A DNA stretch of 64,000 bases from Myxococcaceae bacterium JPH2 (GTDB taxonomy: Bacteria > Myxococcota > Myxococcia > Myxococcales > Myxococcaceae): positions 62,001-126,000 of the forward strand of contig JAEMGR010000021.1 of assembly GCA_016458225.1 (NCBI GenBank), written 5' to 3'. The stretch's first letter is position 1, and the number at the start of each line of letters is the position of its first letter. The position numbers were made by a program, and so were the translations under genes. A model generated the notes under the pieces. The model had not been told where the DNA came from and did no database searches. It saw nothing but the letters and a program-made list of their open reading frames with translations. Shown here piece by piece: positions 9,258 to 47,964 of the stretch.

Positions 9258-9261
<4 letters not shown>
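7741..9261 (-). CDS. Stand-alone condensation protein with TubC docking domain, last step of the NRPS/PKS line
   Basis: A 506-residue protein at the distal end of the operon. Residues 1-60 look like a TubC-type N-terminal docking domain (MNLDQLLSRLAEHHVQLWAE, then LRLALMTHKPRLLELL), which accepts the C-terminus of the preceding synthase. Residues about 75-490 form an NRPS condensation domain with LSFAQERLW and an intact catalytic motif HHAVVDG near 207, plus the later IGTFVNTLALR. No adenylation, carrier or thioesterase domain follows. Since this is the last gene and no thioesterase exists in the operon, it probably releases the polyketide acyl chain by amide or ester formation with a free or separately carried nucleophile. 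It overlaps the preceding PKS stop by 4 bp (ATGA). The acceptor is unknown. Confidence 0.88.
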
Positions 9262-15823
<6,562 letters not shown>

Positions 15824-15827
<4 letters not shown>

Positions 15828-21379: not shown

Positions 21380-21387
21380 GGCGTGCC

Positions 21388-33900: not shown

Positions 33901-36818
33901 TCCGCGACCACGACCGCGCCCTCGACCTGCGGGTGGGCGCGCAGCGCGGCCTCGATCTCTCCGGGCTCCACGCGGTGGCCGAGGATGGAGAGCTGGAAGT
34001 CGACGCGGCCGAGAATCTCGATGTTCCCATCCGGCAACAGGCGACCGAGGTCGCCCGTGCGATACAGGCGCTCGCCGGTGACGGGGTGGGTGACGAAGCG
34101 CTCCCGCGTGCGCTCCGGATTCCGCCAGTACCCTTGGGCCAGTCCTATGCCCGCGCAACACAGCTCACCGGGGACCCAGACGGGACGCTCGCGGAGCGCC
34201 TCGTCCATGACGTGGTAGCGCGTGTCCGCGATGGGCCGACCATAGGGAATGCTCGCCCAGCCCGGCTCGACGGCGCCGATGCGGTACCAGATGTTCCACA
34301 GGCTCGTCTCGGTGGGCCCGCCCACGCTCACGGGCTGCACACCCGGCACGAGCGCGCGCAGCCGCTCTGGCAGGCTGAGCGGAATCCAGTCCCCGCCGAG
34401 GAACGCCAGTCGCAGCGTGGGCGCCAGCGGTTCGGGCCGCTCCTGCGCGTGTGCGAGGAGCATCTCCATCATGCCGGGCACGGAGTTCCACACGGTGATG
34501 CGCTCGCGTCGCAGCAGCTGGGCCCAGCGCGCCGGCTCCTTGCGCGCGGCGGGCTCACACAGGACGAGCGCCCCGCCCGCGGACAGCATCCCGAACACGT
34601 CGAAGAGGGACATGTCGTGATGCAGCGCGGTCAGCGCGAGGACTCGGTCCTCGGGGCCCACCTGGAACTCGCGCAGCGTCTCGTCGAGCGCGTGCACCAG
34701 TCCACGATGGGCCAGCATGACGCCCTGGGGGCGACCTGTTGATCCCGAGGTGTGGAAGATGACGGCCAGGTCGTCCGGTCCCTGCGCGGGAGCGGGAAGC
34801 TCGTCGCGGTGAACGGGCGCGACAGGCGCGTCGGTCACTGACAGTCGCTGAAGGCCCTCGGGCCATTCGAGCTGTGCCTCCAGCCACGGTTGGGTGAGCG
34901 CCAGCTCGCAGCCCCCATCTTCCAGCAATCTCCACCGCCGCTCACGGGGCGCGGCGGCATCGATGGGCAGATACGGCGCGCCCGCGAGCGAGGCCGCGAC
35001 CGTGGCCACCACCTGCTCCCAGCCCTTCTCCATGACCACCGCCACCGGGTGGTTCCTGCGCGCACCCGCGCGCCTGAGCAGGGCTGCCAGGGCCGTGGCG
35101 CGCGCGAGCAGCTCGCCATGGGTGAGGGTGCGCTCGGGCGCGATGACGGCGGGGCGCTCGGGATGCGCGAGGGCCTGCTCCACGAAGCGCGTGTGCAGCA
35201 GTGCCTCCGTGCCCATTCCGTCGCGGCGCGGCCCGGCCGCCACGCGAGGCGCGGTCAACCGCAAGGGCTGCTCCCGCACGACGTCCGGCTCGGTCCCCAG
35301 TCGCTCCAGGAGCCCTTGGTACGCGGCGAACATCGCGTCGATGAGCCCGGGCGCGAACAGCTCATCGGCCGAGTCCCAGTTGAAGAACACGCCGCCGTCC
35401 TGGAACACGAGCTGATGGTCAATCCACACCTGAGGCGTCTGCGTGACAGCGTGCACCACGCGGCCGAACGCGCGGCCCAGCTGATCCACCCAGCACGAGT
35501 CCCAGCCCTCCACGCCGCTGGCGAAGCTGGTGAGCACCACGGGCATGAGCGCGCCGGAGATGCCCCCGCGCTCGCGGAAGAGCTGCCGGAGCACCTCCAC
35601 GCCCCCGATGTCGCGGTGCTCCAGGTCGCGGAAGAGCTGCGCCTGCAGCGCGCGCGCCCGCTCCTCGAAGGTGCCGCCCGTCCGATGGTCCACCTCCACG
35701 AGGAGGAAGGACGAGAACGTGCCCACCATCTTCCCCACGTCCTCGTGGAGCGGCAGGCGGTTGTAGAGCGGCACGTTCAGCGTGAAGTGCGGGCTCTTGC
35801 TGAAGTGCGCCAGCACCTCGGCGTAGCAGGCCAGCAGGAGCCCCGTCGGCGTGAGCTGGAGTTCGCGGGCGCGCTGGACGAGCAGCTCCCACCGGGCGCG
35901 CTCCAGCCGAGCCTCGCGGCGCACGAAGCGCGGTCGCCGCGCGCCCCGAGCCCCGGGCACGCGCGGCAGCTCCGGCGCGGGAGGCAGTGTGCCGATGCGC
36001 TCGCGCCAGTACGCCTGTGAGCGGCGGTAGCGCGCTGACTGGGGCAGCGCCTGGCTGGCCAGGACGTAGTCGCGGAAGGACGCGCGGTGCTCGGGAGGAT
36101 CCAAGCGCGCGTCCGGGTCTGCGTAGCACTGCATCAGCTCGCGGAAGAGGATCTGCACGCTCCACGAGTCGACGAAGGTGCAGTCGAGGCTGAAGAAGAG
36201 GCGGTGCCCCTCTGTCAGCCGCACCGCGCGCAGCTCGAAGAGCGGCCACGTATCCAGCGGAAGCACCTGATGCTCCAGGCGCTGGCGGTGCGCGTCCAGT
36301 CGTCGCTCACGCTCCTCCTCGGGCAAGGCGCGGTAGTCCTCGACGACGACTTCGTAGGCGGGGACCTGGGCGAGGATGCGCTGCGAGCCGTCCGCGGTCG
36401 CCACCGCGCGGAGCATCTCGTGGCGCTGGATGAGCTGGCGCCACGCCGCGCCGAGTCGCTCCGGCTCCAGCGTCGCGCTGTCGAGCTCCACATAGACATG
36501 GATGGCCGCGCCCAGCTCCACGTCGCCGCCGCGCCCGACCCAGTAGGCCTGCTGGATGTCGGTGAGGGGGAAGGGCAGGTGGCGCTCGCGAGGCCGCGAC
36601 ACGAGCGCCGGAAGCTCGGCCGCGCGCGCGTCGCCCTGGCCATGCGCCAGCAGCGCGAGGACCTCCGCCTTGTGCACCGCCAGGGCCTCGCGAAGCTCCT
36701 CGGTGAGCGTCCCGTGAGGCGCGTCGATGGCCAGCTTCCCGTCTTCGACCCACAGGCGGATGCCCAGGTCGAACACGCGCGTGAGGAGCGACGTGACGCC
36801 CCCATCCATGGGCATCAT
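27993..36818 (-). CDS. Hybrid NRPS-PKS: TubC-Cy-A-PCP-KS-AT-DH-KR-ACP
   Basis: A 2941-residue synthase that makes the azoline and first polyketide unit. Residues 1-60 are a TubC-type docking domain. Cy about 75-500 shows heterocyclisation motifs: DCTFVDSWS, TQTPQVWIDHQ, PVVLTS and NWDSADE. A about 530-1010 (HTSGSTG, YRTGD, GPTGKLDR); I read its specificity code as DMFNFGVLWK, closest to cysteine but not standard. PCP about 1055-1120 (ELGANSVHL). KS about 1150-1580 (TACSTSL); AT about 1680-1990 (GHSLGE, RAAHSHLM); DH about 2040-2290 (HRARGTALLP, HPAVLDACLQ); KR about 2560-2750 (TGGFGRLG, ASYAAAN with Tyr); ACP about 2830-2900 (LGLDSLGS); C-terminal docking helix. No oxidase domain lies in A, so an azoline rather than azole is expected. 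Start: GGAGGAG sits 5 bp before 36818; 36815 (TGATG) is nearly as good. Confidence 0.93.
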   Translation of the reverse strand: MMPMDGGVTSLLTRVFDLGIRLWVEDGKLAIDAPHGTLTEELREALAVHKAEVLALLAHGQGDARAAELPALVSRPRERHLPFPLTDIQQAYWVGRGGDVELGAAIHVYVELDSATLEPERLGAAWRQLIQRHEMLRAVATADGSQRILAQVPAYEVVVEDYRALPEEERERRLDAHRQRLEHQVLPLDTWPLFELRAVRLTEGHRLFFSLDCTFVDSWSVQILFRELMQCYADPDARLDPPEHRASFRDYVLASQALPQSARYRRSQAYWRERIGTLPPAPELPRVPGARGARRPRFVRREARLERARWELLVQRARELQLTPTGLLLACYAEVLAHFSKSPHFTLNVPLYNRLPLHEDVGKMVGTFSSFLLVEVDHRTGGTFEERARALQAQLFRDLEHRDIGGVEVLRQLFRERGGISGALMPVVLTSFASGVEGWDSCWVDQLGRAFGRVVHAVTQTPQVWIDHQLVFQDGGVFFNWDSADELFAPGLIDAMFAAYQGLLERLGTEPDVVREQPLRLTAPRVAAGPRRDGMGTEALLHTRFVEQALAHPERPAVIAPERTLTHGELLARATALAALLRRAGARRNHPVAVVMEKGWEQVVATVAASLAGAPYLPIDAAAPRERRWRLLEDGGCELALTQPWLEAQLEWPEGLQRLSVTDAPVAPVHRDELPAPAQGPDDLAVIFHTSGSTGRPQGVMLAHRGLVHALDETLREFQVGPEDRVLALTALHHDMSLFDVFGMLSAGGALVLCEPAARKEPARWAQLLRRERITVWNSVPGMMEMLLAHAQERPEPLAPTLRLAFLGGDWIPLSLPERLRALVPGVQPVSVGGPTETSLWNIWYRIGAVEPGWASIPYGRPIADTRYHVMDEALRERPVWVPGELCCAGIGLAQGYWRNPERTRERFVTHPVTGERLYRTGDLGRLLPDGNIEILGRVDFQLSILGHRVEPGEIEAALRAHPQVEGAVVVADGDRHAPRLVAYVVDKPGAAMGAETLRAHLQERLAEHMVPAVFVILERFPLGPTGKLDRAALPRPETALPAPPPRSLETSAAPPDVEEALAELVRDELHVPSVDRRRNFFELGANSVHLVRIAARIRRELGVDIPTAELFQNANLAALAAHLGRARRGEAGAPSARVLEARTSALERVPIAIIGMSARLPGAPDVDTYWRNLTGGIESVRCFTDEELLAEGLSRELLQDPRYVKAGAVLEDIAGFDAGFFGLTAREAVLTDPQHRLFLECAWEALERAGYRPDATGKKVGVFGGKSMGHYLSPALDLSQPLPYFQRLFGNDKDFVATQVSYKLNLTGPSITLQTACSTSLVAVALACQSLWNRDCEMALAGGVSIKVPHHLGYLAEPGSGMFSPDGHCRPFDARAQGILPASGAGLVVLKRLEDALADGDHIHAVIRGAAVNNDGGDKVGFSAPSRDGQAEVIARAQAMAGVPPHTVRYVEAHGTGTPMGDPLEIAALTQAFRMGTEDTGFCAVGSSKSNFGHLDTAAGIAGLIKSALAIERGLIPPTLHFDTPNPAIDFSRTPFYVNTHLLPWPDDGHPRRAGVSSFGVGGTNAHVILEEAPRFVPERLRRRDATHLERPLHLLPLSARSPSALQVLSRRFEDLLADAPESALADIGYTASVVRSHLPHRLAVVGRTPREMREQLRAAREGLAAPGVVRGTAEGTPRVAFLFTGHGAQHPGMGRGLFETQPVFRRAMERVDGLLRSELDTPLVEVLYGKEGRRLAEVAYAQPALFAVEYALSEVWRAWGITPDAVLGHSLGEYVAALQAGVFGLEDAVRLVAARGRLIAELGLEGETLVVLADEARIREVATPFGSRLAIASLNAPENIIVSGEGPAVRALAEDLRARGIETKRLEASRAAHSHLMDPVLPVFEELARGIAFQPPSVPLVSNLTGRLAGREVASARYWTRHLREPVRLADGMRTLGARGIHAFLEIGPKPTLVWMGRECLPAQPALWLSSLRQGHDDWRQMLECLSALHTRGAPVDWRGFEQGRARRRVVLPTYPFERQRYWADEAGARSGAVRVGHPLLGARVESAALRPGELLFESRLSTTTPAYLGDHRARGTALLPATAHVELLLAAGAVALPERALVIEELRVEHALVLPEQGELTVQVVARPRADAAFEVEVFRREDSAGAGATWTRHAVGLVRAARANEKPPVRLDAVSTRTGKVETGEAHYERAQALGITFGEAFRGLRELWRDDMGVGARIEVPANLTADCAPHHVHPAVLDACLQPVVATAPPPAPGDWWVPARFERVRVHRLPLPSRLVSRVTARAPLVADVTLFDETGSACLSVEGFELRRTRGDALIPEARPGLAEALYEPGWREQARSVREVVPPPSTWLILADDQGLGETLAVQLEEARESCVVVHAGVGYARRGPRQFQVDPARPEDFTRLLDEAVPPGRPLRQVLYLWALDAPAPAGLQAEGLARASVRICGGALHLVQALTGRSDAPPTLHFVTRGTQGTDVGLQSAMGGLGKVIALEHPELGCRCVDLAQGSGLEACTELLAEVRSGSQEAQVQLDAGRRRVARLRPAEALGAPEPLRPDATYLITGGFGRLGQLVARAMLERGARNLALLGRRVPPQGSEGLAALQATGANVVLLEADVSKPRSLATAVDGVRRAMPPLRGVIHAAGTVLDGPVQTQSWEAFANVLAPKVQGAWNLHRATQGVELDFFILFASVASLLGSAGQASYAAANAFLDGLARHRRSLGLPALSIAWGPWSGEGAAASEATAERLRRQGLGMFSPAQGLAVLHRLWSHSRAQVAVAPIDWKSFLASHSSTFFADMALQVESPRRAGASGLLQRMEGVPASERHPLLRSHVREQVAAVLGLAPSAVGMGRGLFDLGLDSLGSLEIRNRLQASLACDLPSVVVFKHPSVEQLATYLATEVLRMDPQALAGEPATAEEPPLEEVIRRLERKLEDLG

Positions 36819-37978
36819 GTCCACTCCTCCGCGTTGACGAGGAAGCAGGGGAAGTAGCCCGTTGCGCCTCGGTGATAGTCATCGGCGAGCGCGGGCAGCT
36901 CGTCGAACGTGTACAGCCGGCTGTCCACCTGCGGCATCCAGCCCCTGGCCTCGCCATAGGCCATGGCGTCCAGTCCTTCCTGGTAGCGCGCGAAGTGGGT
37001 GTGGATGTGCTGGTGGCGGGTGATGCACTCGCGCGCGCGCAGCAGCGTCAGCTCCATGCCCTCCTTCCAGCCCGCGGTGGCCAGCACGCCTTGTCGCGCC
37101 AGCGCCCGAAGCGTGGCCCGGTGGACGGGCGTGCCGATGTAGTCGAGGAACACGTGCACCATCGCCCCCTCGGTGCGGCGCGCGACCTCGGCCAGGAAGG
37201 CCATCTCCGCCTGCAGGTAGGCCTGGCGGTAGTCGCGGTCCGTCTCCATGCGGTGGGGCTCGTGGCTCAGCCGCCCGAAGGTGTTCCGGTCGATGGCCTC
37301 CAGCCCCGCGCGCTGAATCTCATCCAGGTGGTGCGGCGAGCCGGACAGCATGACGGCGCGCCAGCCTTGAGACTTGGCCAGGGTCAGCTCGGCCAAGGTC
37401 GTTCCACCGCCCCAGCCCCAGGCCTGCGGAGTGGGGCACTCCTCCTTGGGGACTTGAAGGCGGAAGACCGCCGAGGCCAACCGCCAGTTCGCCCAGGCCG
37501 TGACGTAGCGGACGCTGAACGCGGCCCACTGCGCGGGCGTGTGGCGCGAGTTCTCCGGGAGAGGGATGAGCTGCGCGCCGTGCAGCTTCATGAGCGTGGC
37601 CATGCAGCCCATCTGTCCCGGCGCCTCGTAGCCCAGGGCCTTGACGGTGTATCCGTGCGCGTCTGTCTCTCCGCTGGGGAACATCATCGCCAGCTGGCCC
37701 GCGCGCACCTGCGTGACGGCCTTGCCCGTCTCCAGCACGCGCACCACGCCCGCGTTGCCCAGCACCACCTGGGGCTCGCGCCGCACCTGGCAGATGTCGA
37801 TGGGCGTGCGGGCCAGCGCGTGCTCGGTGTTGCCCTCCCAGCAGCCACACACCGGCGCGGCGAGGACCTCGTCGTCGCGGATGGACTCCACGGTGACGCG
37901 CGTGCGCTTCAGGCGCGCGCGGCATGGGCGCCCCACCTCGCCTGCTTCGATGACCCAGGCATCGGCTTGATAGCTCAT
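36815..37978 (-). CDS. MDR-family (zinc-type) dehydrogenase/reductase
   Basis: A 387-residue medium-chain dehydrogenase/reductase. The N-terminal half is a GroES-like fold, and about 200-290 is a Rossmann domain with WGWGGGTTLAEL in place of the usual GxGxxG and the beta-strand end AVMLSGSPHH. The typical catalytic-zinc and structural-zinc cysteine clusters are not obvious (GCWEGNTEHAL occupies the expected region), so it may be a zinc-free reductase of the quinone-reductase or enoyl-reductase type. Inside the operon it could reduce an enoyl or azoline intermediate in trans, or oxidise a tailoring site; none of the PKS modules has its own ER. Its stop overlaps the start of the hybrid synthase (TGATG), so the two are translated together. 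Function beyond family is not certain. Confidence 0.75.
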   Translation of the reverse strand: MSYQADAWVIEAGEVGRPCRARLKRTRVTVESIRDDEVLAAPVCGCWEGNTEHALARTPIDICQVRREPQVVLGNAGVVRVLETGKAVTQVRAGQLAMMFPSGETDAHGYTVKALGYEAPGQMGCMATLMKLHGAQLIPLPENSRHTPAQWAAFSVRYVTAWANWRLASAVFRLQVPKEECPTPQAWGWGGGTTLAELTLAKSQGWRAVMLSGSPHHLDEIQRAGLEAIDRNTFGRLSHEPHRMETDRDYRQAYLQAEMAFLAEVARRTEGAMVHVFLDYIGTPVHRATLRALARQGVLATAGWKEGMELTLLRARECITRHQHIHTHFARYQEGLDAMAYGEARGWMPQVDSRLYTFDELPALADDYHRGATGYFPCFLVNAEEWT

Positions 37979-38016: not shown

Positions 38017-39825
38017 TTACAGCGTGACGAACTCGCGGCCCGTCCCCGTCGCCTCGGGCCGGGTCTCGGAGACCTGAGCGCGCAGCCAGCGCGCCAGCAG
38101 CTCGTCGGCCAGCACCTCCAGGCTCGTCGCCTCGAAGAATCGCGACACGGGCATGTCGATGGACAGCTCGGTGCGGATGCGCCCGGTCAGCTCGATGAGC
38201 CGCAGCGAGTCGAGCGCCAGCTCCTGGAGCGAGTGGATGGGCTGCTCCGGACGCTGTCCCCGCAGCGCCACCCGCACGAGCGTCTCGTGCAGGTACTCAC
38301 GCAAGAGCGCCTTGCGCCGCTCGGGGCTCGCCGAGCGCAGTCCGCCTAGCAGGTCCGCCGTCGCGGCAGCGGGCTTCCGCGAGGGAACATCCGCGTCGCG
38401 CGCGGACTCGATGCCCGCGGGACACGTGGGCAGGAACGCGGACGCGGGCCGCTCGGGCGAGGCCATCGCCTGGCCCAGCACCGCCAGGAAGTCCTCCAGC
38501 AGGCGCACCGCATCCGCGTCGTCCAGCAGGTGGCGCGAGTACTTGAGCGTGCCCGCGATGTCGCCACCGTCCTCGTGCAGCGCGAGGAAGAGGTCGAAGT
38601 CACACGTCCCACCGGACAGCTCCACCGGGCGGATGCGCAGCTCCGACAGCGTCAGCGCATGGCGCGGCGTGTTCTCGTAGGAGAAGAGGACCTGCGACAA
38701 GGGCTCGTCGCCCAGGTCCAACCCGTCCATGAGCTGCACGGGCAGGTCCTGGTGCGCCAGCGCGCCCGACACCACGCCTCGCGCTTGCTCCAGCACTTGC
38801 TGGAAGCTCGGGTCGCCGCGCAGGTCCGCGGGCAGCACGAGCAGGTTGGTGAAGTACCCGATGAGCGGCTCCACCTCGCTTCTCTGACGATTGGCGATGG
38901 GGCTGCACACGAACAGCTTGGGCTGATTGCCCGAGTACCGATGCAGCAGCACCTGGAACGCGGCCAGCAAGGTCATGAAGACGGTGACGCCCGCCTCGCG
39001 CGTCGTCTGGAGAACGGCCGTGGCCAGCGACGCGGGCAGGCGCAGCGGCAACACGCCCAGCTCGCGGCTCCGCGCGTGCGAGGTCGACGCGTCCGGACGG
39101 CCCACGCGCAGCCGCGGCCCATGGAGGCGGCTCGAGAGGCACTTGCGCCAGTGGTCCTGGAGTCCTTCCAGCACGCGGCCTCTCAGCCACGAGCGCTGCC
39201 ACCGCGCGTGGTCCGCGCACTGGATGGTCAGCTCGGGCAGGGGCGACGGCCGCTTCAGCCGGAACGCGTCGTAGAGGGCGGACACCTCGCGGAACAGCAC
39301 GTCCTGCGACCAGCCGTCGTAGATGATGTGGTGGAAGTTGATCAGGAGGACGTGGTCGTCCTCACGCAGCTCGAACAGCGTCGCCCGGAACAGCGGATCC
39401 CTCAGCAGGTCGAACGGGCGCCAGGCTTCGCGGGCCAGCGCCTCCTGGAGCCGCGCGGCGAAGCCCTCCTGGCTCGGCTCCAGCTCGCGCAGCGACACGC
39501 TCGACAGGCGGAACGCGCCGGGAGGGCGCACGCGCTGGACGACCTGGCCTCGGCTCGAATCGAACGAGGTGCGGAGGGCCTCGTGCCGATGCTCGATGGT
39601 CTCCAGCGCCAGCCGCAGCGCGCGCGTGTCCAGCGGCCCTTCCATGCGGAACGCGACGGGCAGGTGATACGCCGTGCCTCCGGGGTTGGCCTGGTCCAGG
39701 TACCACAGGCGCTCCTGCGCGAAGGACGCGCGCGTGCCTCCTTGGCGGGTGCCTCGCACCAATGGCGGCGCGGCGGAGCGCAGGGCATGCAGTCGCTGGA
39801 AGGCCCTCCAGACGTCGGCTTGCAT
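38017..39825 (-). CDS. NRPS condensation-carrier didomain protein (C-PCP), no adenylation domain
   Basis: A 602-residue protein. Residues about 20-450 form a condensation domain: SFAQERLWYLDQ, HRHEALRTSF and the catalytic HHIIYDGWS, all intact. Residues about 490-585 form a carrier domain around LALDSLRLIEL, with the phosphopantetheine Ser. There is no adenylation domain between or after them, so the carrier must be loaded in trans, perhaps by the stand-alone prolyl adenylation protein of this operon or by an enzyme elsewhere. The start at 39825 has GGAG eight bases upstream and forms TGATG with the stop of the preceding carrier gene; an ATG two codons earlier is too close to that site. Its product could be the nucleophile for the terminal condensation protein, which is speculation. 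Confidence 0.85.
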   Translation of the reverse strand: MQADVWRAFQRLHALRSAAPPLVRGTRQGGTRASFAQERLWYLDQANPGGTAYHLPVAFRMEGPLDTRALRLALETIEHRHEALRTSFDSSRGQVVQRVRPPGAFRLSSVSLRELEPSQEGFAARLQEALAREAWRPFDLLRDPLFRATLFELREDDHVLLINFHHIIYDGWSQDVLFREVSALYDAFRLKRPSPLPELTIQCADHARWQRSWLRGRVLEGLQDHWRKCLSSRLHGPRLRVGRPDASTSHARSRELGVLPLRLPASLATAVLQTTREAGVTVFMTLLAAFQVLLHRYSGNQPKLFVCSPIANRQRSEVEPLIGYFTNLLVLPADLRGDPSFQQVLEQARGVVSGALAHQDLPVQLMDGLDLGDEPLSQVLFSYENTPRHALTLSELRIRPVELSGGTCDFDLFLALHEDGGDIAGTLKYSRHLLDDADAVRLLEDFLAVLGQAMASPERPASAFLPTCPAGIESARDADVPSRKPAAATADLLGGLRSASPERRKALLREYLHETLVRVALRGQRPEQPIHSLQELALDSLRLIELTGRIRTELSIDMPVSRFFEATSLEVLADELLARWLRAQVSETRPEATGTGREFVTL

Positions 39826-40124
39826 CAGCATTGCTCCGCGCAGGCCCTGGCGCGCAGCCGGGCGAGGGTGAACACGCGGATGGCCTGGAGGCTGCGGAAG
39901 TTGTCCATGACGATGTCCGGCGGGCTCACGCTGATGTCGAAGCGCCGCTCCAGGAAGTTCACGAGCCGGAACAGCCCCATCGAGTCGATGACCCCGCGAG
40001 AGATGAGGCTGTCCTCCTCGGTCAGCCCGGCGTCGCGGGAGCGGAAGAGGAACTCCTGGTCGATGTGGTCGCGGATGATTCGGGCGACCTGCTCCTCGGT
40101 AAAATCTCCGATTGTCTGATTCAC
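39825..40124 (-). CDS. Stand-alone peptidyl carrier protein (probable prolyl/pyrrolyl carrier)
   Basis: A 99-residue carrier protein with a four-helix layout and the attachment Ser48 in GVIDSMGLFRL. The Asp-Ser-Met signature and the size match the free-standing carriers that hold proline while a flavoenzyme oxidises it to pyrrole (family of PltL/RedO). Identity as the prolyl carrier rests on its position between the proline adenylation gene and the downstream synthases and is inference. The start is GTG at 40124, with GGAG nine bases upstream. Its stop overlaps the C-PCP gene start (TGATG). An 81-bp gap separates it from the adenylation gene, the widest gap inside the operon; no promoter is evident there. 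Confidence 0.88.
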   Translation of the reverse strand: MNQTIGDFTEEQVARIIRDHIDQEFLFRSRDAGLTEEDSLISRGVIDSMGLFRLVNFLERRFDISVSPPDIVMDNFRSLQAIRVFTLARLRARACAEQC

Positions 40125-40205
40125 TGGCGTTCACTCCGGCTTCTGGGCATGGCACGCCCGTCGGGTCATCGACCCGTGAGTTGAACCTGCGTCATCGGGG
40201 CGGAC

Positions 40206-41768
40206 TCACCCGTGCTCGCGCGCCCGTTCCTGGAGCCGTACCCGGTCCTTCTTCCCCGTCGTCGTCTTCGGCAGCTCGTGACACGGGTCGATGCGGGCGG
40301 GGACCATGTAGCGGGGCAGGTACTCCGCGCAGTGCATCCTGAGTTCTTGCGGGCTGATGGCGGACGCGGCGCGGAGCACCACGAAGGCCCGCAGCTCGTT
40401 GCCGGTGAGTTCGTCGGGCAGCGTCACCGCCGCGCTCTCCTCCACGTCCGGATGCCGCAGCAGCACCTCCTCGACCGCGCCCAGCTCCACGCGGTGTCCT
40501 CGCACCTTGACCAGGTCGTCCCGGCGCCCCAGGAAGTGCAGGACGCCCCGCTCATCGCGCCGCGCGCGGTCACCCGTCCGGTACGCGCGCGCACGCCCTA
40601 GGAGCGGCCCCAGCACGGCCCGCGTGCGCTCCGGCATGCCCCAATAGCCGCTCATCACGGTGGGGCCCGCCACGCACAGCTCCCCCTCGTCACCCGGCCG
40701 CGCCTCCGCGCCGTCATCACCGAGCAGGAACACCTCGTCCCCGCAGCAGGCCCGGCCAATGGGCAGCGTCTCCGAGCCCTCCAGCTCTCTCGGCCCCACT
40801 GGCTGGAACGTGCAGACGTTCGTCTCGGTGGGCCCGTAGAGGTTGAGGCAGCGCACGTGCGGCAGTGAATGGACGAGCCGCCTGAGGTACTTCAGCGGGA
40901 AGACCTCGCCCGCGAAGAGCACCGTGCGCAAGGCGCGGAAGCCGTGGCGCTCCAGCTCGCCGCGTGCCACCAGCTGCGTGAGCACCGATGGGACGGAATA
41001 CCAGACGCTGATGTGCTGGGCCTCGATGAAGTCCGCCAGCTCGCGAGGAAAGACAGACAGGGCCGGCGGCACCAGGACAATGGCCGCGCCTGCCTTCGTG
41101 GCCGCGAAGAGGTCGAGGACGGACAGGTCGAAGTGGAGGGGCGCGTGACTCGACACGCGGTCCCCGGGACGGATGTCCGCCTCGGTGTGGGCCCAGTCCA
41201 CGAACGCGCGCGCGGCGCGGTGGCTGAGCATCACGCCCTTGGGCTGCCCGGTGGAGCCCGAGGTGTAGAGGATGTACGCCAGGTCCTCGGGGGACCCCTC
41301 GACAGGGGGCTCGCGCGCGGCGGGACCGGCCAGCGCCGCGTCCCACGAGAGGGTCGCCGGGCCGCCCGGGTCGGCGCGCCATGCCTGTGGCGCGGCGCCG
41401 ACGAGGATGGCGCAGCGCAGGCTGCTCACGGAGCCCAGCGTGTCCATCCAGGCGGGCGTGGTGAGCACGCCGGACAGCTCGCAGTCGCGCGCGATGAACT
41501 CCAGTCGCCACGCGGGCGCGGTGGGCTCCAAGGGCACGTAGGCGGCGCCGGCGCGCAGGATGCCGAACAGCCCCACCACGGCCTCCAGCGACTTGTCCAG
41601 ATGGAGGCCCACGCGGTGGCCTCGGCCGATGCCGTGGGCGCTGAGCGTGCGGGCCAGTCGCCCGGCCGCCGCGTCCAGCTCTCCGAAGGTCATGACGCGG
41701 AGGCCGTCAATGACGGCGGGCTGGTGAGCGAAGGCGCGCGCGCTGTCTTCGAGCAACGGGTACAGCAT
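40206..41768 (-). CDS. Stand-alone adenylation protein, L-proline specific (prolyl-carrier ligase)
   Basis: A 520-residue AMP-forming adenylation enzyme. Core motifs are present: LYTSGSTGQPKG, NLYGPTETNVC, YRTGDRA, and the terminal TTTGKKDR with the catalytic Lys. Reading the ten specificity positions by alignment to the GrsA frame gives D-L-L-Y-L-A-L-V-C-K, which I recognise as the code of the proline-activating enzymes that feed pyrrole formation (PltF, RedM, CloN4 type). The enzyme would make prolyl-AMP and load proline onto the 99-residue carrier. It is preceded by AGGAGGGGG five bases before the start and lies 19 bp after the dehydrogenase gene. This is one of the best-supported functional calls in the window. 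Confidence 0.93.
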   Translation of the reverse strand: MLYPLLEDSARAFAHQPAVIDGLRVMTFGELDAAAGRLARTLSAHGIGRGHRVGLHLDKSLEAVVGLFGILRAGAAYVPLEPTAPAWRLEFIARDCELSGVLTTPAWMDTLGSVSSLRCAILVGAAPQAWRADPGGPATLSWDAALAGPAAREPPVEGSPEDLAYILYTSGSTGQPKGVMLSHRAARAFVDWAHTEADIRPGDRVSSHAPLHFDLSVLDLFAATKAGAAIVLVPPALSVFPRELADFIEAQHISVWYSVPSVLTQLVARGELERHGFRALRTVLFAGEVFPLKYLRRLVHSLPHVRCLNLYGPTETNVCTFQPVGPRELEGSETLPIGRACCGDEVFLLGDDGAEARPGDEGELCVAGPTVMSGYWGMPERTRAVLGPLLGRARAYRTGDRARRDERGVLHFLGRRDDLVKVRGHRVELGAVEEVLLRHPDVEESAAVTLPDELTGNELRAFVVLRAASAISPQELRMHCAEYLPRYMVPARIDPCHELPKTTTGKKDRVRLQERAREHG

Positions 41769-41787: not shown

Positions 41788-42933
41788 TCAGAGGCCCATC
41801 ATTCGAGCCACGAGGTCTCGCTGAATCTCCGAGGTGCCGGAGAAGATGCGGCTCCCCAGCGCGTCGCGCGCTTCCCGCTCCAGCTCCGTCTCCGTGAGGT
41901 AGCCCTGGCCGCCGTGGACCTGCACCGCGTCAAGGCATGTCTGTACCCAGGCCTCGCTCACGTGGAGCTTCACCAGCGACGCTTCCATCATCGCGCTGCG
42001 GCCCTGCTGCTTGAGCCACGCGAAGCGGTACAGCAACCCACGCGCCGTCTCCAGGCGCAGCCGCATCTCCACCAGCTTGGTGGACACGGCCTGGAAGTCG
42101 CCGATGGGCCGCTCGAACTGCCGGCGCTCGCGTGCATGTCGCACGCAGCGCGCCAGGATGCGCTCCATGGCCCCCAGCGCTGGCGCGAGGATGAAGCCGC
42201 GCTCGTACTCCATGAGCTGTGCGAACAAGGGCAGGCCCGCGCCCTCCGCGCCCAGGCGCTGCGACACGGGAACCTCGCAGCCAGCCAGCCGCAGCTCGCC
42301 CATGCTCGCGGTCCGCAGCCCCATCTTCGACACCGTGCGCTCGACGTGGAGCCCTGGCTGCCCACGCTCCACCAGGAACGCCGTCAGGCCCTCGCGTCCC
42401 CGCGCGGGGGCCACCGTGGCGAAGACCACGGTGAGGTCCGCCACGGGGGCGTTGGTGACGAAGACCTTGCGGCCCTGCAGCACGTACACGTCCCCGCGTC
42501 GGGTGGCCGTCGTGCGCAGCGCCGCCACGTCCGAGCCCGCCTCCGGCTCGGTCATCGCGTGGCTGCCCACGCGCGTCCCCCGGGCCAGCGAGGGCAGGTA
42601 GCGCTCCTTCTGCGCCTCCGTGCCCACCAGGAGGATGGGCAGCGCGCAAGCCCACAGGTGCGCGCCCAGCGCGAACCCGAGGCCGTTGTCCGCGCACCCC
42701 AGGCCCAGTCCCTCCAGCGCCTGAGCGGTGGTGAGCAGCGACTGCTCGGCGCCACCGTAGCGGCGCGGGAATGGCAGGCCGAGCACGCCGAACTCAGCGA
42801 CCCGCCGCCAGCCCTCGTGATTGAAGGTCCCGTCGCGGTCCAGCGCCACCACGTCGAATGAGAGCTGCTCGCGGGCGAACGCGGCCGCGTCTGACTTCAT
42901 CCGCGCGTCTTCGGGCGCCCACGCGAAGTCCAT
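41788..42933 (-). CDS. Acyl-CoA-dehydrogenase-like flavoprotein (prolyl-PCP to pyrrolyl-PCP oxidase)
   Basis: A 381-residue FAD enzyme of the acyl-CoA dehydrogenase fold: MTEPEAGSD, QVHGGQGYL and IFSGTSEIQR are family signatures. The residue before GTSE, the catalytic Glu in medium-chain dehydrogenases, is Ser here; instead Glu244 in MEYERGFI lies at the isovaleryl-CoA-dehydrogenase position, which is also where the prolyl-carrier oxidases (PltE, CloN3, RedW type) keep their base. Next to a proline adenylation gene and a free carrier, it most likely performs the four-electron oxidation of prolyl-S-carrier to pyrrole-2-carboxyl-S-carrier. GGAGG lies seven bases before the start, inside the end of the radical SAM gene (3-bp gap). 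Confidence 0.92.
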   Translation of the reverse strand: MDFAWAPEDARMKSDAAAFAREQLSFDVVALDRDGTFNHEGWRRVAEFGVLGLPFPRRYGGAEQSLLTTAQALEGLGLGCADNGLGFALGAHLWACALPILLVGTEAQKERYLPSLARGTRVGSHAMTEPEAGSDVAALRTTATRRGDVYVLQGRKVFVTNAPVADLTVVFATVAPARGREGLTAFLVERGQPGLHVERTVSKMGLRTASMGELRLAGCEVPVSQRLGAEGAGLPLFAQLMEYERGFILAPALGAMERILARCVRHARERRQFERPIGDFQAVSTKLVEMRLRLETARGLLYRFAWLKQQGRSAMMEASLVKLHVSEAWVQTCLDAVQVHGGQGYLTETELEREARDALGSRIFSGTSEIQRDLVARMMGL

Positions 42934-42936
42934 GGC

Positions 42937-44682
42937 TCAGCCTCCGCCTTGGGCGAGCACCGCGTGAGAGGCATTCCCTTGCAGCTCCGCCAGCATCGAC
43001 GCGGGCACGGTGAAGTCGTCGAACCAGCGGCCTCCGAAGGGGCGGGGGAGGGGGACGATCTGGTCACTCGAATGCGACAGGACGCGCCGGTTGTACGCGC
43101 GGATGTCGTCGCGCAGCGGAGCGGGCAGCGCGCCATCTTGCGTGAGCGCGCGCTCCATCTCGCCGAGCAGCGTCTCCGTCTCGGAGATGGCGGACAGGAT
43201 TCCCTGGCACACGCCGCGGGGAAGCACCCCCGCCTGTCCCTTGGCATCCACGAGGCGAGCCACCGCGCCATAGGTGGCGTCCTGGAGCTGGCGTCGTGAC
43301 AGCCAGCGCGTCTCGTAGTTGAGCCGCCGATGCCAGAGCGGCTCCACCATGGCGCGCCGATGCTCCTCCAGCGTGCGGTGGAAGAGGCGATAGCCGTGGG
43401 GCTCGGGGTCCTCGAAGAAGCGCGAGCCCGGGTCGAGGAACGGCACCATGGGACACAGCAAGGGCAGCACGCGCCGGCCCGGGAAGCGCTCCAAGAGGCC
43501 GATGCAGTAGTCCACCGTGTCGGAGATGGACTGCGGTGTCTGCTGGGGCATCCCGATGAAGAACCAGACCAGGACGCCCGCGATGCCCGCGTCGAGCGCG
43601 CGCGGAATCCAGGCCTCCATCTGCTCCATCGTGTACGTCCCGCGCCCGGACAGCTTGCTGATGACCGGGTCGTGCGACTCGGGCGACAGCAGGATGTAGG
43701 TCTGGCTGGCCTGGCCCATCCGCCGCAGCGTGTCCTCGGGCGTCAGGTGGAACTGCTCGACGAAGAGCTGGCGATAGCCGGCCTCGCGCACCGCCTCGAG
43801 GTATGCGTGGAAGCGCGGGCGCGTCTCCGAGTAGCACTGGAGCGCGTAGATGCCGGTGCGCGCGGCGGCGGGGCCCAGGGTGCGCAGCTCGTCGACGACG
43901 CGTGGATGGCTTTTCGGAATCAGCGTCTTCTTGACGCCCATGACCTGCTGGAAGGCCGAGCGCGAGCCGCCGCACCAACCACAGTCATACGCGCACCCGG
44001 TGTTGGGCAGCGTCATGATGAGCCGCGTCGCGGCCACGTCGCCGGGAGCGTCCCGGTAGAAGCCCCAGTCCACCGTGGCGTCGTTGGAGTCGCGGGCGGG
44101 CTTGTGCGCGAAGCCCGTGCGCTCGACACGGCCCTGGCGCTTGAACAGGAGGTTGGGGATGCCCTCCAGGTTCCGCTCGCCGCGCTGGAGGCGCTCGACC
44201 AACTGCCGGGTGGGCTCCAGCGTGTCGTAGCCCTGCACCACGACATCGATGGCCGGGTACTGGATGAGCTGCTCCGCGTAGTACGTGGCGGAGATGCCCC
44301 CGCAGAGGATGACCGCCTCGGGGTGGGCTCGCTTGATGCGGCCCGCCAGCTCGATGGCGCCGTGGCAGTGCGCCAGCCAGTGCAGGTCCACGCCGAAGAC
44401 GGGCGCCTCCAGCCGCTCCAACAGGCGGTCCACGTCCAGCGCCGGGTGCTGGAGCATCAGCGCCGCCACGTTGACGATGTCCACCGCGAGGCCGTGCGCG
44501 CGCAGGTGCTCCTTCAGCGCGAGGAAGCCAATCGGATACATCTCGTAGATGGACGTGACGTTGACGCTGTCGGAGTCGCTCAGATAGGCGAACAGCACGT
44601 CGTCCCGCTCGCGGAAATCATAGACACTCGGCGCGTGCAGCAGGAACAGGTCTGCTCGCAATGTGCTGAGTGGCTCGCTCAT
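42937..44682 (-). CDS. B12-binding-domain radical SAM protein, first gene of the operon
   Basis: A 581-residue protein. Residues about 10-170 fit a cobalamin-binding Rossmann domain (AHPEAVILCGGISATYYAEQ is the family's GG-x-xAT region). The radical SAM core begins at about 220 with a CxxxCxxC cluster, Cys230, Cys234 and Cys237 (TGCAYDCGWCGGS), which binds the [4Fe-4S] cluster. A C-terminal ~180-residue extension follows. Class B enzymes of this type methylate unactivated carbon or phosphorus, though a few catalyse ring contraction or other radical chemistry. As the first gene of the operon it probably tailors the pathway product or a building block; the target is unknown. The ribosome site is weak (GGAA eight bases upstream). 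Confidence 0.87.
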   Translation of the reverse strand: MSEPLSTLRADLFLLHAPSVYDFRERDDVLFAYLSDSDSVNVTSIYEMYPIGFLALKEHLRAHGLAVDIVNVAALMLQHPALDVDRLLERLEAPVFGVDLHWLAHCHGAIELAGRIKRAHPEAVILCGGISATYYAEQLIQYPAIDVVVQGYDTLEPTRQLVERLQRGERNLEGIPNLLFKRQGRVERTGFAHKPARDSNDATVDWGFYRDAPGDVAATRLIMTLPNTGCAYDCGWCGGSRSAFQQVMGVKKTLIPKSHPRVVDELRTLGPAAARTGIYALQCYSETRPRFHAYLEAVREAGYRQLFVEQFHLTPEDTLRRMGQASQTYILLSPESHDPVISKLSGRGTYTMEQMEAWIPRALDAGIAGVLVWFFIGMPQQTPQSISDTVDYCIGLLERFPGRRVLPLLCPMVPFLDPGSRFFEDPEPHGYRLFHRTLEEHRRAMVEPLWHRRLNYETRWLSRRQLQDATYGAVARLVDAKGQAGVLPRGVCQGILSAISETETLLGEMERALTQDGALPAPLRDDIRAYNRRVLSHSSDQIVPLPRPFGGRWFDDFTVPASMLAELQGNASHAVLAQGGG

Positions 44683-44813
44683 GAGCGGCGTTTCCGGCGT
44701 GGGCCCAAGGGGATGTCTGGGAATGGTGGGGGTAGATACAGCCGGCGCCGAGAATGGCCGTGGAGCCCCGGAATGTCCTTCGTCCCCCGGTACTGGAATG
44801 GAGGGATCTTCAG

Positions 44814-44843
44814 AACATAGGGGTATTTCTTATCTGTCTTGAA
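44814..44843 (-). promoter_or_regulatory. Candidate promoter of the NRPS/PKS operon
   Basis: The 283-bp gap before the operon contains one clearly A+T-richer stretch (about 44809-44855). Read on the minus strand it offers TTCAAG (44838-44843), an 18-bp spacer and TATGTT (44814-44819), a weak -35/-10 pair 132 bp upstream of the first start codon. The match is loose, and the compositional dip is the main evidence. Confidence 0.3.
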
Positions 44844-44886
44844 TTTGCGACAGGGCGGCGCCGAGCGGGCTTCGCACGAAACACCA

Positions 44887-44920
44887 CGGCCCGCTCCGGG
44901 TGGGTTCCGGAAGCGGGCCG
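44887..44920 (-). terminator. Hairpin terminator of the secreted-protein gene, upstream of the operon promoter
   Basis: An inverted repeat of 9 bp (CGGCCCGCT / AGCGGGCCG) plus 4 bp (CCGG / CCGG) with a one-base bulge and a 7-base loop lies 46 bp beyond the stop at 44966. On the minus strand it is followed shortly by GTGTTTCG. It would stop read-through into the biosynthetic operon. Confidence 0.5.
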
Positions 44921-44965
44921 CGCTGGCTCGGCAGAGATAGCGCGCTCGGTGAGGCGCGCGCGGGG

Positions 44966-45874
44966 CTACTTGAAGGATGTCTCCAACTCACCTTCGGCAC
45001 AGATGAGTTTCAGCCACTGCACGCCGGGCTTGGGGTCCTTCTTGAACAGACCGCCGCGGATGGAGTTCTGGTCGCCGGCCTCCAGGTTGCCCAGGACATA
45101 GTGGCTGCCGTCGGGCTTGCGGACGTCGCACTGGGTCCAGTCCTTGTCGCTCTGGTTGAAGACCGTCACGCGGTCGCCATCGCCCACGGCGTAGCCCTTG
45201 AGGGCGGCGGGGCGGGCGGGCTCGGCGTAGAGGAACTCGGCCTCGCCCTGGAAGCACTTGACCGTGACGCGGTCGGTGGGCGGCACCGGGGGGCTGGAGA
45301 ACTTCACCTTCATCACGGTGTCATCCGCGCCCGCGGACACGCGGCCCAGCTTGTAGAAGCGCTCGTCCGAGAAGCGCAGCATGCAGCCGGTCCACGCCTC
45401 CTCGGAATTGTTGTGAATCGTGACGCGGACGAGTCCGGACGCGAGGCTGCCGCGCAGGCGCGGGGCGGGCTCCGCGGCCTCGGCGGGCGGCGCGGGCGGG
45501 GCCGAGGGAGGCGGCTCCACCGCCACGGGGGCGGGAGCAGGGGCCTGCGCGGGAGCGGCGGCTGGCGCAGCGGCCGGAGCGGGAGTCGCCTCGGGGGCGG
45601 GCTTGATGGCGCGCGCGAACTTCGCGCCGCTCTTGACCGCGTCGGCGTTGAGCCGGACGAGGGCGCCCTTCACTTCCATGACGACGGCGGTTCCCACGGC
45701 CTTGGTGCCGTTCGCGTCCGCGAACAGGGTGACCTCGTCGCCCACGCTGGGGGCGTCCTTCGCGTCGACGTGCAGGAAGGGGTTGCCCGCGTCGATGAAG
45801 AGCTTCACGGGCTTGGACTCGGCCTGGGCGCCGGTCGTGAACAGCAGCAGCGAGACAAACAGTGCTTTCATCAC
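44966..45874 (-). CDS. Exported proline/alanine-rich protein of unknown function
   Basis: A 302-residue protein with a clear signal peptide (ALFVSLLLFTTGAQA, cleavage near residue 19). Residues about 20-92 form a small beta-type domain (VGDEVTLFADANGTKAVGTA). Residues about 93-140 are a Pro/Ala/Glu-rich flexible linker, and 140-302 contain two similar beta segments, each with an Asn-x-Ser turn and paired Cys (NNSEEAWTGCMLRF ... CFQGEAEF; NQSDKDWTQCDVRK ... CAEGELE), suggesting a duplicated disulphide-bonded domain. I do not recognise the family. Two adjacent Met codons make the start uncertain by one residue. It has its own upstream region with a nested inverted repeat and a terminator hairpin downstream, so it is probably monocistronic and independent of the biosynthetic operon. 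Confidence 0.8.
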   Translation of the reverse strand: MMKALFVSLLLFTTGAQAESKPVKLFIDAGNPFLHVDAKDAPSVGDEVTLFADANGTKAVGTAVVMEVKGALVRLNADAVKSGAKFARAIKPAPEATPAPAAAPAAAPAQAPAPAPVAVEPPPSAPPAPPAEAAEPAPRLRGSLASGLVRVTIHNNSEEAWTGCMLRFSDERFYKLGRVSAGADDTVMKVKFSSPPVPPTDRVTVKCFQGEAEFLYAEPARPAALKGYAVGDGDRVTVFNQSDKDWTQCDVRKPDGSHYVLGNLEAGDQNSIRGGLFKKDPKPGVQWLKLICAEGELETSFK

Positions 45875-46476
45875 ACTTCCTGGAAGAGGCGGTTGATTCG
45901 ACTCGGTTAGAAGAAACCGTCCGGCGAATCAAGCGGGCGACTGGCCGCGTGGGCAGGCCTATTCCTCTCGGGAATTGGATGCTGAGAAATTGGGCGCCCG
46001 TTCTTGGGGCGCGCTCACCCGCTGGCCTCCAGCTCCGCGCCGAGCGCGGCGATGCGGCGAGAGTCGCGCTGCCGCACGTGCAACATCAGGTCGTCGGTGC
46101 GGAGGGCCTCTGGACAACTCTCCCTTGGCTGGGCCTGCGCGGGAGGGCGGCGTGCACGCAGTTCAACCTGTCCCTTGGTGCGGTGATGCCCCAGGGGTGA
46201 ATGTCTGGCTTATCGCCAGCCCTTCTGCCGGCGGCGGAACGGCTCACGGGCATGATGGTCGTGAGGGTTCACCGCGGGAGGCGGCCTGGGGCGCGAGGTC
46301 CGTCCAGGAAGCCAGTTCACGCCAGCGAGCGAGGAGGCGACGCGGCGCTTCGGGCGGTGCTGCGCGCCGCCGCTCTCTCCACTGCCAGCAGATGCCAGAC
46401 CCCGGGTGTTGCCGCAAGCCCCCCCGCTCGTGCTCCACCATCGCCCGTTTCGTTCCAAGCGCAGGAGGGGCGAGTC
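45875..46476. other. Intergenic region between divergent genes, no gene seen
   Basis: 602 bp between the secreted-protein gene (minus) and the FAD monooxygenase gene (plus). I see no open frame with convincing coding character and no RNA gene. It holds a nested inverted repeat at 45894-45933 close to the minus-strand start, and GGAGGGG seven bases before the monooxygenase start. The rest shows nothing I can interpret. Confidence 0.6.
45894..45933 (-). promoter_or_regulatory. Nested inverted repeat upstream of the secreted-protein gene
   Basis: TTGATTCG (45894-45901) and CGAATCAA (45926-45933) are perfect 8-bp arms around a second inverted repeat, CGGTT (45905-45909) / AACCG (45916-45920), nearly concentric with it. 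It ends 20 bp before the start codon at 45874. It could be an operator or a structured 5' leader; the data do not decide. Confidence 0.4.
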
Positions 46477-47964
46477 ATGAACGCGGACGAGGTGACGCAG
46501 CACGCAGTGGTGATTGCGGGAGGAGGTCCGACCGGGCTGATGCTGGCGGCGGAGCTGGCGTTGGCGCGGGTGGATGTGGCCATCGTCGAGCGGCGCACCG
46601 CTCAGGACGTCGCCGGCTCGCGCTCGCGAGGTCTGCACGCGCGCAGTCTGGAGGTGCTCGACCAGCGCGGGGTCGTCGAGCGCTTCACCTCGCAAGGGCA
46701 GGCGGTCCAGAACGTCGCGTTCGGGCAGTCGCCTCTGGACCTCAGCGACTTCCCGACGCGTCACAACCACGGGCTCGCGCTCGTGCAGGAGCGCTTCGAG
46801 CGCATCCTGGCGGAGTGGGTGGGCGAGCTGTCGGTGCCCATCTACCGAGGGCGCGAGGTGACGGGCTTCGCGCAGGACGACACCGGTGTCGACGTGGCGC
46901 TGTCTGTCGGACATTCGCTGCGGGCGAAGTACCTCGTCGGGTGCGACGGAGGGCGCAGCTTTGTCCGCAAGGAGGCGGGCATCGAGTTCCCAGGATGGGA
47001 CGCATCCATCAGCTACCTCATCGCCGAGGTCGAGATGACCGAGACTCCAGCGGTTGGCATCCGCCGGGATGCGAAGGGCACCTATGCCATGGGCAAGCTG
47101 GAGGACGGCCGCGTGGGCGTCGTGCTCAGAGAGGAGCAGGTCTGCATGGGCGACGCGCCGACCCTCGAGCTTCTGCGCGAGGGGCTCATCGCGCTCTATG
47201 GGACGGACTACGGCCTGCGCCGCGCCACGTATCTCTCGCGCTTCACCGACATGACGCGACAGGCGGCGTCCTATCGCAACCGGCGGGTCCTCCTGGCCGG
47301 TGACGCGGCCCACGTGCACTCGCCGATGGGCGGACAAGGGCTCAACCTCGGCGTGCAGGATGCCGTGAACCTGGGGTGGAAGCTGGCCCAGGTCGTGCGC
47401 GGCGTCTCGCCGGAGACCTTGCTCGACACGTACCAGGCCGAGCGGCACCCCGTCGCGGCCCGTGCGCTGCGCAAGACCATGGCGCAGACCGCACTGAGCC
47501 GCGGTGACGCGCGGATGGATGCCGTGCGCGAGACGCTGACGGAGTTGCTGCGGATGGACGGGCCCCGCAAGCAGTACGCGGCGATGTTGTCGGGCCTGGA
47601 CATCCACTACGACCTGGGCAGCGGACATCCGCTGCTCGGGCGCCGAATGCCGGACCTCGAGCTGCTCACGCCCGATGGCCCTCGGCGCGTGTTCCACCTG
47701 CTGCACGAAGCGCGTCCCGTGCTGCTCCACTTGGATGAGCGAGCCCCCATGAATGTCGCGCCCTGGGCAGACCGGGTTCGGACAGTCGCCGCTCGCTACA
47801 CGGGAGCGTGGGAACTCCCGGTGCTCGGCCTCGTCGCGGCGCCTATGGCGGTGCTGATTCGACCGGACGGCTACGTCGGATGGGTTGGGGAGGGCACGGA
47901 CCAGGGGCTGCGTGAGGCCCTGGCCCGATGGTTCGGGCCGCCGCGTGAAGCCGAGGCGTCCTAG
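46477..47964 (+). CDS. FAD-dependent aromatic-type monooxygenase (class A)
   Basis: A 495-residue flavoprotein hydroxylase of the PheA/TfdB type, the group that includes tetracycline- and rifampicin-type hydroxylases. The nucleotide-binding motif IAGGGPTGLMLAAEL is near residue 13, the DG motif is in VGCDGGRSFVRK (about 160), and the FAD ribityl motif is in LLAGDAAHVHSPMGGQG (about 275-290), followed by LGVQDAVNLGWKL. The last ~110 residues resemble the thioredoxin-like C-terminal domain of this family. It would use NAD(P)H and O2 to hydroxylate a small aromatic or polyketide; the substrate is unknown. The start at 46477 has GGAGGGG upstream. Its stop overlaps the convergent peptidase stop by 4 bp (shared CTAG). 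It is 1.8 kb from the NRPS/PKS operon but not part of it; a tailoring role is possible but unsupported. Confidence 0.92.
   Translation: MNADEVTQHAVVIAGGGPTGLMLAAELALARVDVAIVERRTAQDVAGSRSRGLHARSLEVLDQRGVVERFTSQGQAVQNVAFGQSPLDLSDFPTRHNHGLALVQERFERILAEWVGELSVPIYRGREVTGFAQDDTGVDVALSVGHSLRAKYLVGCDGGRSFVRKEAGIEFPGWDASISYLIAEVEMTETPAVGIRRDAKGTYAMGKLEDGRVGVVLREEQVCMGDAPTLELLREGLIALYGTDYGLRRATYLSRFTDMTRQAASYRNRRVLLAGDAAHVHSPMGGQGLNLGVQDAVNLGWKLAQVVRGVSPETLLDTYQAERHPVAARALRKTMAQTALSRGDARMDAVRETLTELLRMDGPRKQYAAMLSGLDIHYDLGSGHPLLGRRMPDLELLTPDGPRRVFHLLHEARPVLLHLDERAPMNVAPWADRVRTVAARYTGAWELPVLGLVAAPMAVLIRPDGYVGWVGEGTDQGLREALARWFGPPREAEAS

Follow-up and report, generated by a model that had tools for sequence, protein, structure and literature searches.

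The first gene of a myxobacterial NRPS/PKS cluster encodes a cobalamin-type radical SAM enzyme from a clade that accompanies a proline cassette in three phyla

The cluster and its first gene

The window, meaning the whole stretch of 64,000 nucleotides from Myxococcaceae bacterium JPH2 that was analysed, includes an NRPS/PKS cluster, all features of which lie on the minus strand. The first cluster gene (42937–44682) encodes a B12-binding/radical SAM enzyme of 581 aa, here called P0001, recognised from the ORF and its Pfam domains. It heads a same-strand run of ten annotated genes and a small carrier-protein ORF, in the order radical SAM enzyme, dehydrogenase, adenylation (A) enzyme, carrier protein, condensation (C) domain-PCP, crotonyl-CoA reductase (CCR)-like protein, Cy-A-PCP-KS-AT-DH-KR-ACP, three PKS modules and a docked C domain. 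The P0001 gene stops 3 bp ahead of the dehydrogenase gene. Gaps of 3, 19, 50 and 38 bp separate the genes from P0001 down to the CCR-like gene, and the PKS ORFs thereafter overlap.

The dehydrogenase (41788–42933) was assigned to the prolyl-carrier-protein dehydrogenases of the ACAD family on profile scores of 402.7 bits for NF053553 (PigA) and 390.3 bits for NF045652, which are under the cut-offs of 500 and 650, respectively, and on its nearest PDB chain, the prolyl-ACP dehydrogenase 4irn (477 bits; the next two prolyl dehydrogenases score 310 and 280). It is thus far nearer to 4irn than to the PigA-type PDB enzymes. As 4irn is presumably AnaB, which we take to stop at pyrroline, the starter may be a pyrroline and not a full pyrrole. 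The stand-alone proline-type A enzyme (40206–41768; PF00501, 292 bits) matches two PDB L-proline--[prolyl-carrier protein] ligases (6o6e and 7thn) and its pocket code, read by eye, is DLLYLALVCK, which in PheA numbering we take to be a prolyl code. A discrete carrier protein of 99 aa with a DSMG attachment motif follows (39825–40124) and is equally placed in one of the related loci described below (L033). The next gene encodes a condensation domain with an intact HHIIYDG motif and a carrier protein (38017–39825; PF00668, 253 bits, and PF00550); its start is approximate, the ORF list having 38017–40155. The product of 36815–37978 is a CCR-like medium-chain dehydrogenase. Its score against TIGR01751 is only 44.8 bits (cut-off 378.55), although the gene accompanies the cassette genes in eight loci.

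The assembly line begins with a TubC_N-Cy-type C-A-PCP-KS-AT-DH-KR-ACP protein (27993–36824; Cy motif DCTFVDSWS), followed by PKS modules KS-AT-DH-MT-KR-ACP (21388–28176), KS-AT-DH-KR-ACP (15824–22141) and KS-AT-DH-MT-KR-ACP (9258–15827), the ORF starts of the first two being approximate. Hence, the two cis methyltransferases that had been predicted are present, the first in 21388–28176 and the second in 9258–15827. The last gene (7741–9261) encodes a TubC_N docking domain and a terminal condensation domain (HHAVVDG). No thioesterase was seen among the scanned genes, and ending on a stand-alone docked C domain suggests that a free amine or alcohol is condensed with the chain to release it.

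No cobalamin riboswitch was found in 44000–46500 at E ≤ 0.1, and a consensus scan for a promoter or terminator ahead of the P0001 gene, the consensus being uninformative for myxobacteria, found none.

Features of P0001

The original prediction of a B12-binding fold and a CxxxCxxC motif at Cys230/234/237 is borne out in full. Both domains score above their Pfam cut-offs (PF02310, 57.7 bits against 32.1, residues 42–154; Radical_SAM PF04055, 41.3 bits against 29.5, residues 227–392), and the three cysteines are exactly where predicted and invariant in all 22 aligned homologues. Asp99, His101 and Trp102 are also invariant among the aligned homologues, though no certain counterpart of the axial cobalt residue of CysS (Trp75) or TokK (Trp76) could be placed on P0001. 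The long C-terminal extension that had been singled out is not a special feature, as the TIGR04190 profile spans residues 11–502 and the structures of CysS and TsrM align up to residue 550 of the P0001 model. On motif, domains and fold, P0001 is a cobalamin-type (class B) radical SAM enzyme.

Searches with the P0001 sequence found no match in the PDB at E ≤ 0.01 and none among 72,556 plasmids at E ≤ 1e-15. Among the literature matches listed, 'TIGR04190' did not occur and 'Ta0216' matched only unrelated text; the titles and abstract openings listed describe no radical SAM enzyme of a pyrrole cluster from myxobacteria.

The enzyme is part of the cluster

The same gene order follows the radical SAM gene in Citreicoccus inhibens (L032), Myxococcus qinghaiensis (L033) and a further Myxococcus (L038), where the enzyme shares 95, 77 and 78 % identity with P0001, respectively. 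The prediction of a first gene in an operon-like run holds. None of the genes that precede the radical SAM gene in L033 and L038 has a homologue preceding it in the window, which makes this gene the left boundary of a unit that travels in one piece. Across 147 genomes of the same class, a P0001 homologue was detected in only four (E ≤ 1e-20), all of which are among the 30 that include the dehydrogenase (E ≤ 1e-100; hypergeometric p 0.0015, shared ancestry ignored). Hence, the P0001 gene belongs to the cluster and forms its left edge. As had been predicted, this implies a modification additional to the two cis methyl branches.

Leupyrrin and DKxanthene are made by pyrrole-starter PKS/NRPS clusters of myxobacteria, and the cluster in the window has low similarity to that for leupyrrin. 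A study of C. inhibens lists, on scaffold 1, an NRPS/T1PKS Region 1.1 with 20 % similarity to leupyrrin (PMC8538283), which is very probably this cluster. The parts of that paper available to us give no product for Region 1.1, and the same table includes a DKxanthene-like cluster on another scaffold (PMC8538283). The genome of the window (G000) encodes a second prolyl dehydrogenase (52 %; contig 33, L091) beside a PKS cluster, as would fit one of the DKxanthene type.

A clade distinct from TIGR04190

A scan of 84,980 species genomes with P0001 recovered 13 loci, eight of them close (63–95 % identity) and five at 34–38 % identity. The close loci, which together with P0001 make up a clade with 62–95 % identity to P0001, are found in the Myxococcota, the Actinomycetota (Phytohabitans and two Streptosporangiaceae MAGs) and the Chloroflexota (two Anaerolineales MAGs). 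In a tree of 48 rows, the nine close rows form one clade with support of 100/99 and a stem length of 1.26, and this clade was present in 100 % of 200 bootstrap trees, with the caveat that an outgroup row (L004, branch 5.0) joins it, possibly as an artefact.

The best curated family for P0001 is TIGR04190 (Ta0216 family B12-binding/radical SAM protein), at 379.8 bits over residues 11–502 and below the equivalog cut-off of 500. Other members of the close clade fall in the same range (375.1–400.4 bits overall), whereas a Dehalococcoidia homologue scores 615.9. P0001 and TIGR04190 share invariant residues, but the P0001 clade sits apart (100/99) and under the family's cut-off. Members of the clade have conserved stretches of their own, among them RDDxxFAYLSDSxSVN towards the N-terminus and GGRWFDDxTVP towards the C-terminus.

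Association with the proline cassette

The proline cassette is defined here as a proline-type adenylation domain, a carrier protein and a prolyl dehydrogenase. Cassette genes are on the same contig as the radical SAM gene in six of the nine loci found via that gene (the window and the eight close loci), namely the four myxobacterial loci, L034 and L036. Those with no cassette genes on the contig are L037 (11 kb contig), L035 (10 kb) and L044 (78 kb), of which L044 is a case of true non-linkage. At the level of genomes (L032, L033 and L038 being taken as G001, G125 and G123), all eight behind the close loci include a homologue of the proline A enzyme, and seven include a dehydrogenase with at least 50 % identity. 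In the remaining one, that of L035, no dehydrogenase exceeded 37 %; as one of its two A genes begins 169 bases from a contig end, this loss may be an assembly gap. Both A enzymes of this genome include the same FDLS, LFAGE and NLYGPTETNVC motifs. The pocket code is DLLYLALVCK in L036 (Phytohabitans), as in the window, and the near-identical DLFYIAWVCK in L034. In Phytohabitans, the start codon of the radical SAM gene overlaps the stop codon of the carrier-protein gene by four bases and the dehydrogenase gene is about 41 kb away.

As a background, the dehydrogenase (E ≤ 1e-100) occurs in 13 of 200 genomes in the family of the L037 genome (two previously known radical SAM genomes included); for the class that includes Phytohabitans the figure is 2 of 394, and for that of the L044 genome it is 14 of 199. 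Among 11 further dehydrogenase matches, three (L149, L154 and L155) include the radical SAM gene arranged as in L034; as they were found via the dehydrogenase, they show linkage and not an unbiased rate. The other eight are without it, three of these being of the same cluster type on contigs of only 8.7–13.2 kb. The order in L034, L149, L154 and L155 is radical SAM enzyme, P450 (on the other strand), PLP decarboxylase, glutamine-amidotransferase-like protein, dehydrogenase, A, PCP and acyltransferase, and we know of no product of this conserved Streptosporangiaceae cluster. In all four, enzyme and cassette lie on one contig, and neither a PKS nor an azoline module was encountered in the parts that were read. 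A search of 394 genomes of the Actinomycetes class at E ≤ 1e-12, with up to three candidates scored per genome, found a P0001 match only in Phytohabitans itself.

The distant homologues serve as a control. At E ≤ 1e-40, P0001 has matches in 51 of 199 Anaerolineae genomes, one of which is a member of the close clade. None of the other 50, which have only distant homologues, is among the 14 genomes with the dehydrogenase. Hence, the association is a property of the close clade and not of TIGR04190-like proteins generally. No close radical SAM gene was present in the other Anaerolineae or DKxanthene-like contexts that were read.

The reverse arrangement also occurs. Four myxobacterial loci (L068–L071, in G129, G131, G132 and G122) include the dehydrogenase, A, PCP, C-PCP and CCR-like genes at 60–76 % identity, and lack both the radical SAM gene and the PKS. 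The enzyme is therefore optional and not needed for the starter, and the product of this small operon must be a small proline-derived compound. Within the Myxococcota alone, the presence of the radical SAM gene also goes with that of the PKS. Across the phyla, the common partner of the clade is the proline cassette, not a PKS, an azoline module or a chain terminus.

Fold and nearest characterised systems

An AlphaFold2 model of P0001 (pLDDT 80.9, pTM 0.84), compared also by Foldseek, is most similar to CysS (Z 21.4, rmsd 4.1, 429 residues), followed by TsrM (Z 20.6), MgmA (20.3), AprD4 (19.9), TokK (17.8) and OxsB (17.7); the matches to CysS, TsrM, TokK and OxsB have Z of 17–21 over 394–459 residues. 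AprD4 is a dehydratase, and fold alone therefore cannot settle the reaction; B12 radical SAM enzymes also carry out ring contractions and cyclisations. TsrM, from the thiostrepton pathway, shares 17 % identity with P0001 and methylates an sp2 ring carbon, its own substrate being free tryptophan. Its mechanism is described as non-radical (PMC8992657). CysS (cystobactamid) is reported to act on a pantetheine-tethered substrate (PMC12846815), and a carrier-bound target for P0001 thus has a precedent; TokK (carbapenem) also has a pantetheine-tethered substrate according to its PDB title. However, CysS and TokK share only about 12–15 % identity with P0001, and CysS methylates an sp3 methoxy carbon rather than a ring.

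The nearest system in gene content is that of CloN6/CouN6 (clorobiocin and coumermycin), in which, as here, a cobalamin radical SAM-type enzyme occurs with a prolyl adenylation enzyme, a carrier protein and an ACAD dehydrogenase. This setting was encountered in the window and in L032, L033, L038, L034, L149, L154 and L155. CloN6 (accession Q9F8U1; PMC11659888) was likened to P0001 by description and gene context. Deletion studies are reported to assign to it the methylation of a ring carbon of the pyrrole-2-carboxyl unit (PMC8992657, PMC10849742) and to place this after pyrrole formation (PMC8992657, PMC10849742, PMC11218499); according to a 2022 account, it had not been characterised in vitro by then (PMC8992657). 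In the CloN6/CouN6 systems the ring goes to a sugar, whereas in the window it starts a Cy-A-PKS line. A B12 radical SAM tailoring enzyme beside a prolyl cassette is already known via CloN6. What is new here is the clade itself, that it has spread over three phyla together with one cassette, and its position heading a polyketide starter.

Proposed function and alternatives

Because CysS provides a precedent for a tethered substrate and CloN6 for a pyrrole, we propose that P0001 is a cobalamin-dependent radical SAM C-methyltransferase with the carrier-bound proline-derived starter as its dedicated substrate, a reading to which we give a probability of roughly 0.6. The methylation itself, the substrate, the timing and the ring position are inferred from the gene context and these precedents. 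In this scheme, the stand-alone A enzyme would load L-proline onto the discrete carrier protein and the acyl-CoA-dehydrogenase-type enzyme would oxidise it there to pyrroline or pyrrole. The radical SAM enzyme would then methylate a ring carbon while the unit is still carrier-bound, one SAM methylating cob(I)alamin and a second, if the target is sp3, giving the 5'-deoxyadenosyl radical, and methylcobalamin donating the methyl group to the ring. Extension of the methylated starter would then fall to the C/PCP protein and the Cy-A-PCP-PKS line. For a pyrrole ring, with its sp2 target carbon, a polar step like that of TsrM is conceivable; a pyrroline or proline ring fits radical abstraction, as in CysS.

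The target had been predicted to be the pyrrole, the azoline carbon or a chain terminus. The pyrrole is clearly favoured, the cross-phylum partner being the proline cassette, while the azoline carbon and the terminus are disfavoured because neither a PKS nor an azoline module appeared in what was read of the four Streptosporangiaceae clusters.

It is rather unlikely that P0001 acts on the carrier-bound proline-derived ring by something other than methylation, i.e. a radical oxidation, a rearrangement or C–C bond formation that gives an unusual starter. The genomic association accommodates this equally well, the clade lies far from TIGR04190 (stem 1.26) and under its cut-off, and the non-methylating enzymes OxsB (Z 17.7) and AprD4 (Z 19.9) have the same fold; but no feature of the clade was observed that points to another reaction, and most enzymes of the cobalamin radical SAM subclass are described as methylases (PMC12846815). 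The more far-reaching form of this idea, that the clade is a distinct radical SAM/B12 family which remodels the carrier-bound ring by rearrangement or a new C–C bond into a starter unseen in natural products, and has spread over three phyla with the cassette, appears a shade more doubtful.

Methylation by P0001 of some other part of the product, namely the azoline carbon, the polyene or the chain terminus, is similarly improbable. In its favour, no cluster in the Myxococcota has the radical SAM gene without the Cy-A-PKS line, and PKS and enzyme are both absent from the four cassette-only genomes. Against this, the stretches read of the Streptosporangiaceae clusters combine the enzyme with A, PCP and dehydrogenase but include neither PKS nor azoline module, and in Phytohabitans the gene overlaps that for the carrier protein.

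That P0001 instead methylates free proline, the A enzyme then loading methylproline, would agree with the lack of linkage in L044, as expected for an enzyme with a soluble substrate, but is very unlikely given that the A pockets of the window and Phytohabitans both have what we take to be the plain prolyl code, DLLYLALVCK. Finally, although distant relatives are frequent in the Anaerolineae (51 of 199 genomes), it is highly improbable that P0001 is a housekeeping TIGR04190-type gene beside the cluster by chance, as only 4 of 147 genomes of its own class carry it, always with the cassette dehydrogenase (p 0.0015, kinship ignored), and it accompanies the cluster even where the genes upstream differ.

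If P0001 is indeed a starter C-methyltransferase, a methylated starter unit that has so far escaped recognition is to be expected in myxobacterial polyketides. C-methylation of a pyrrole by a B12 radical SAM enzyme has so far rested, in the account cited, on the CloN6 deletion studies (PMC8992657). Nine or more gene sets from three phyla are available in the clade, among them the compact clusters of the Streptosporangiaceae with their A, PCP and dehydrogenase genes, and these suit direct tests of the substrate, of timing relative to ring oxidation and of a radical versus a polar mechanism.

More distant relatives

TIGR04190-like genes are common in the Anaerolineae (L112–L130), and the neighbours in these 19 loci gave no hint of the reaction. 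Two neighbourhoods recur, one MoxR/DUF58-like and the other 2-oxoacid:ferredoxin oxidoreductase-like, both named by eye from the sequence starts. Dehalococcoidia MAGs include divergent, head-to-head pairs of TIGR04190-type genes (L039, 1213–4847; L040, 812–4446).
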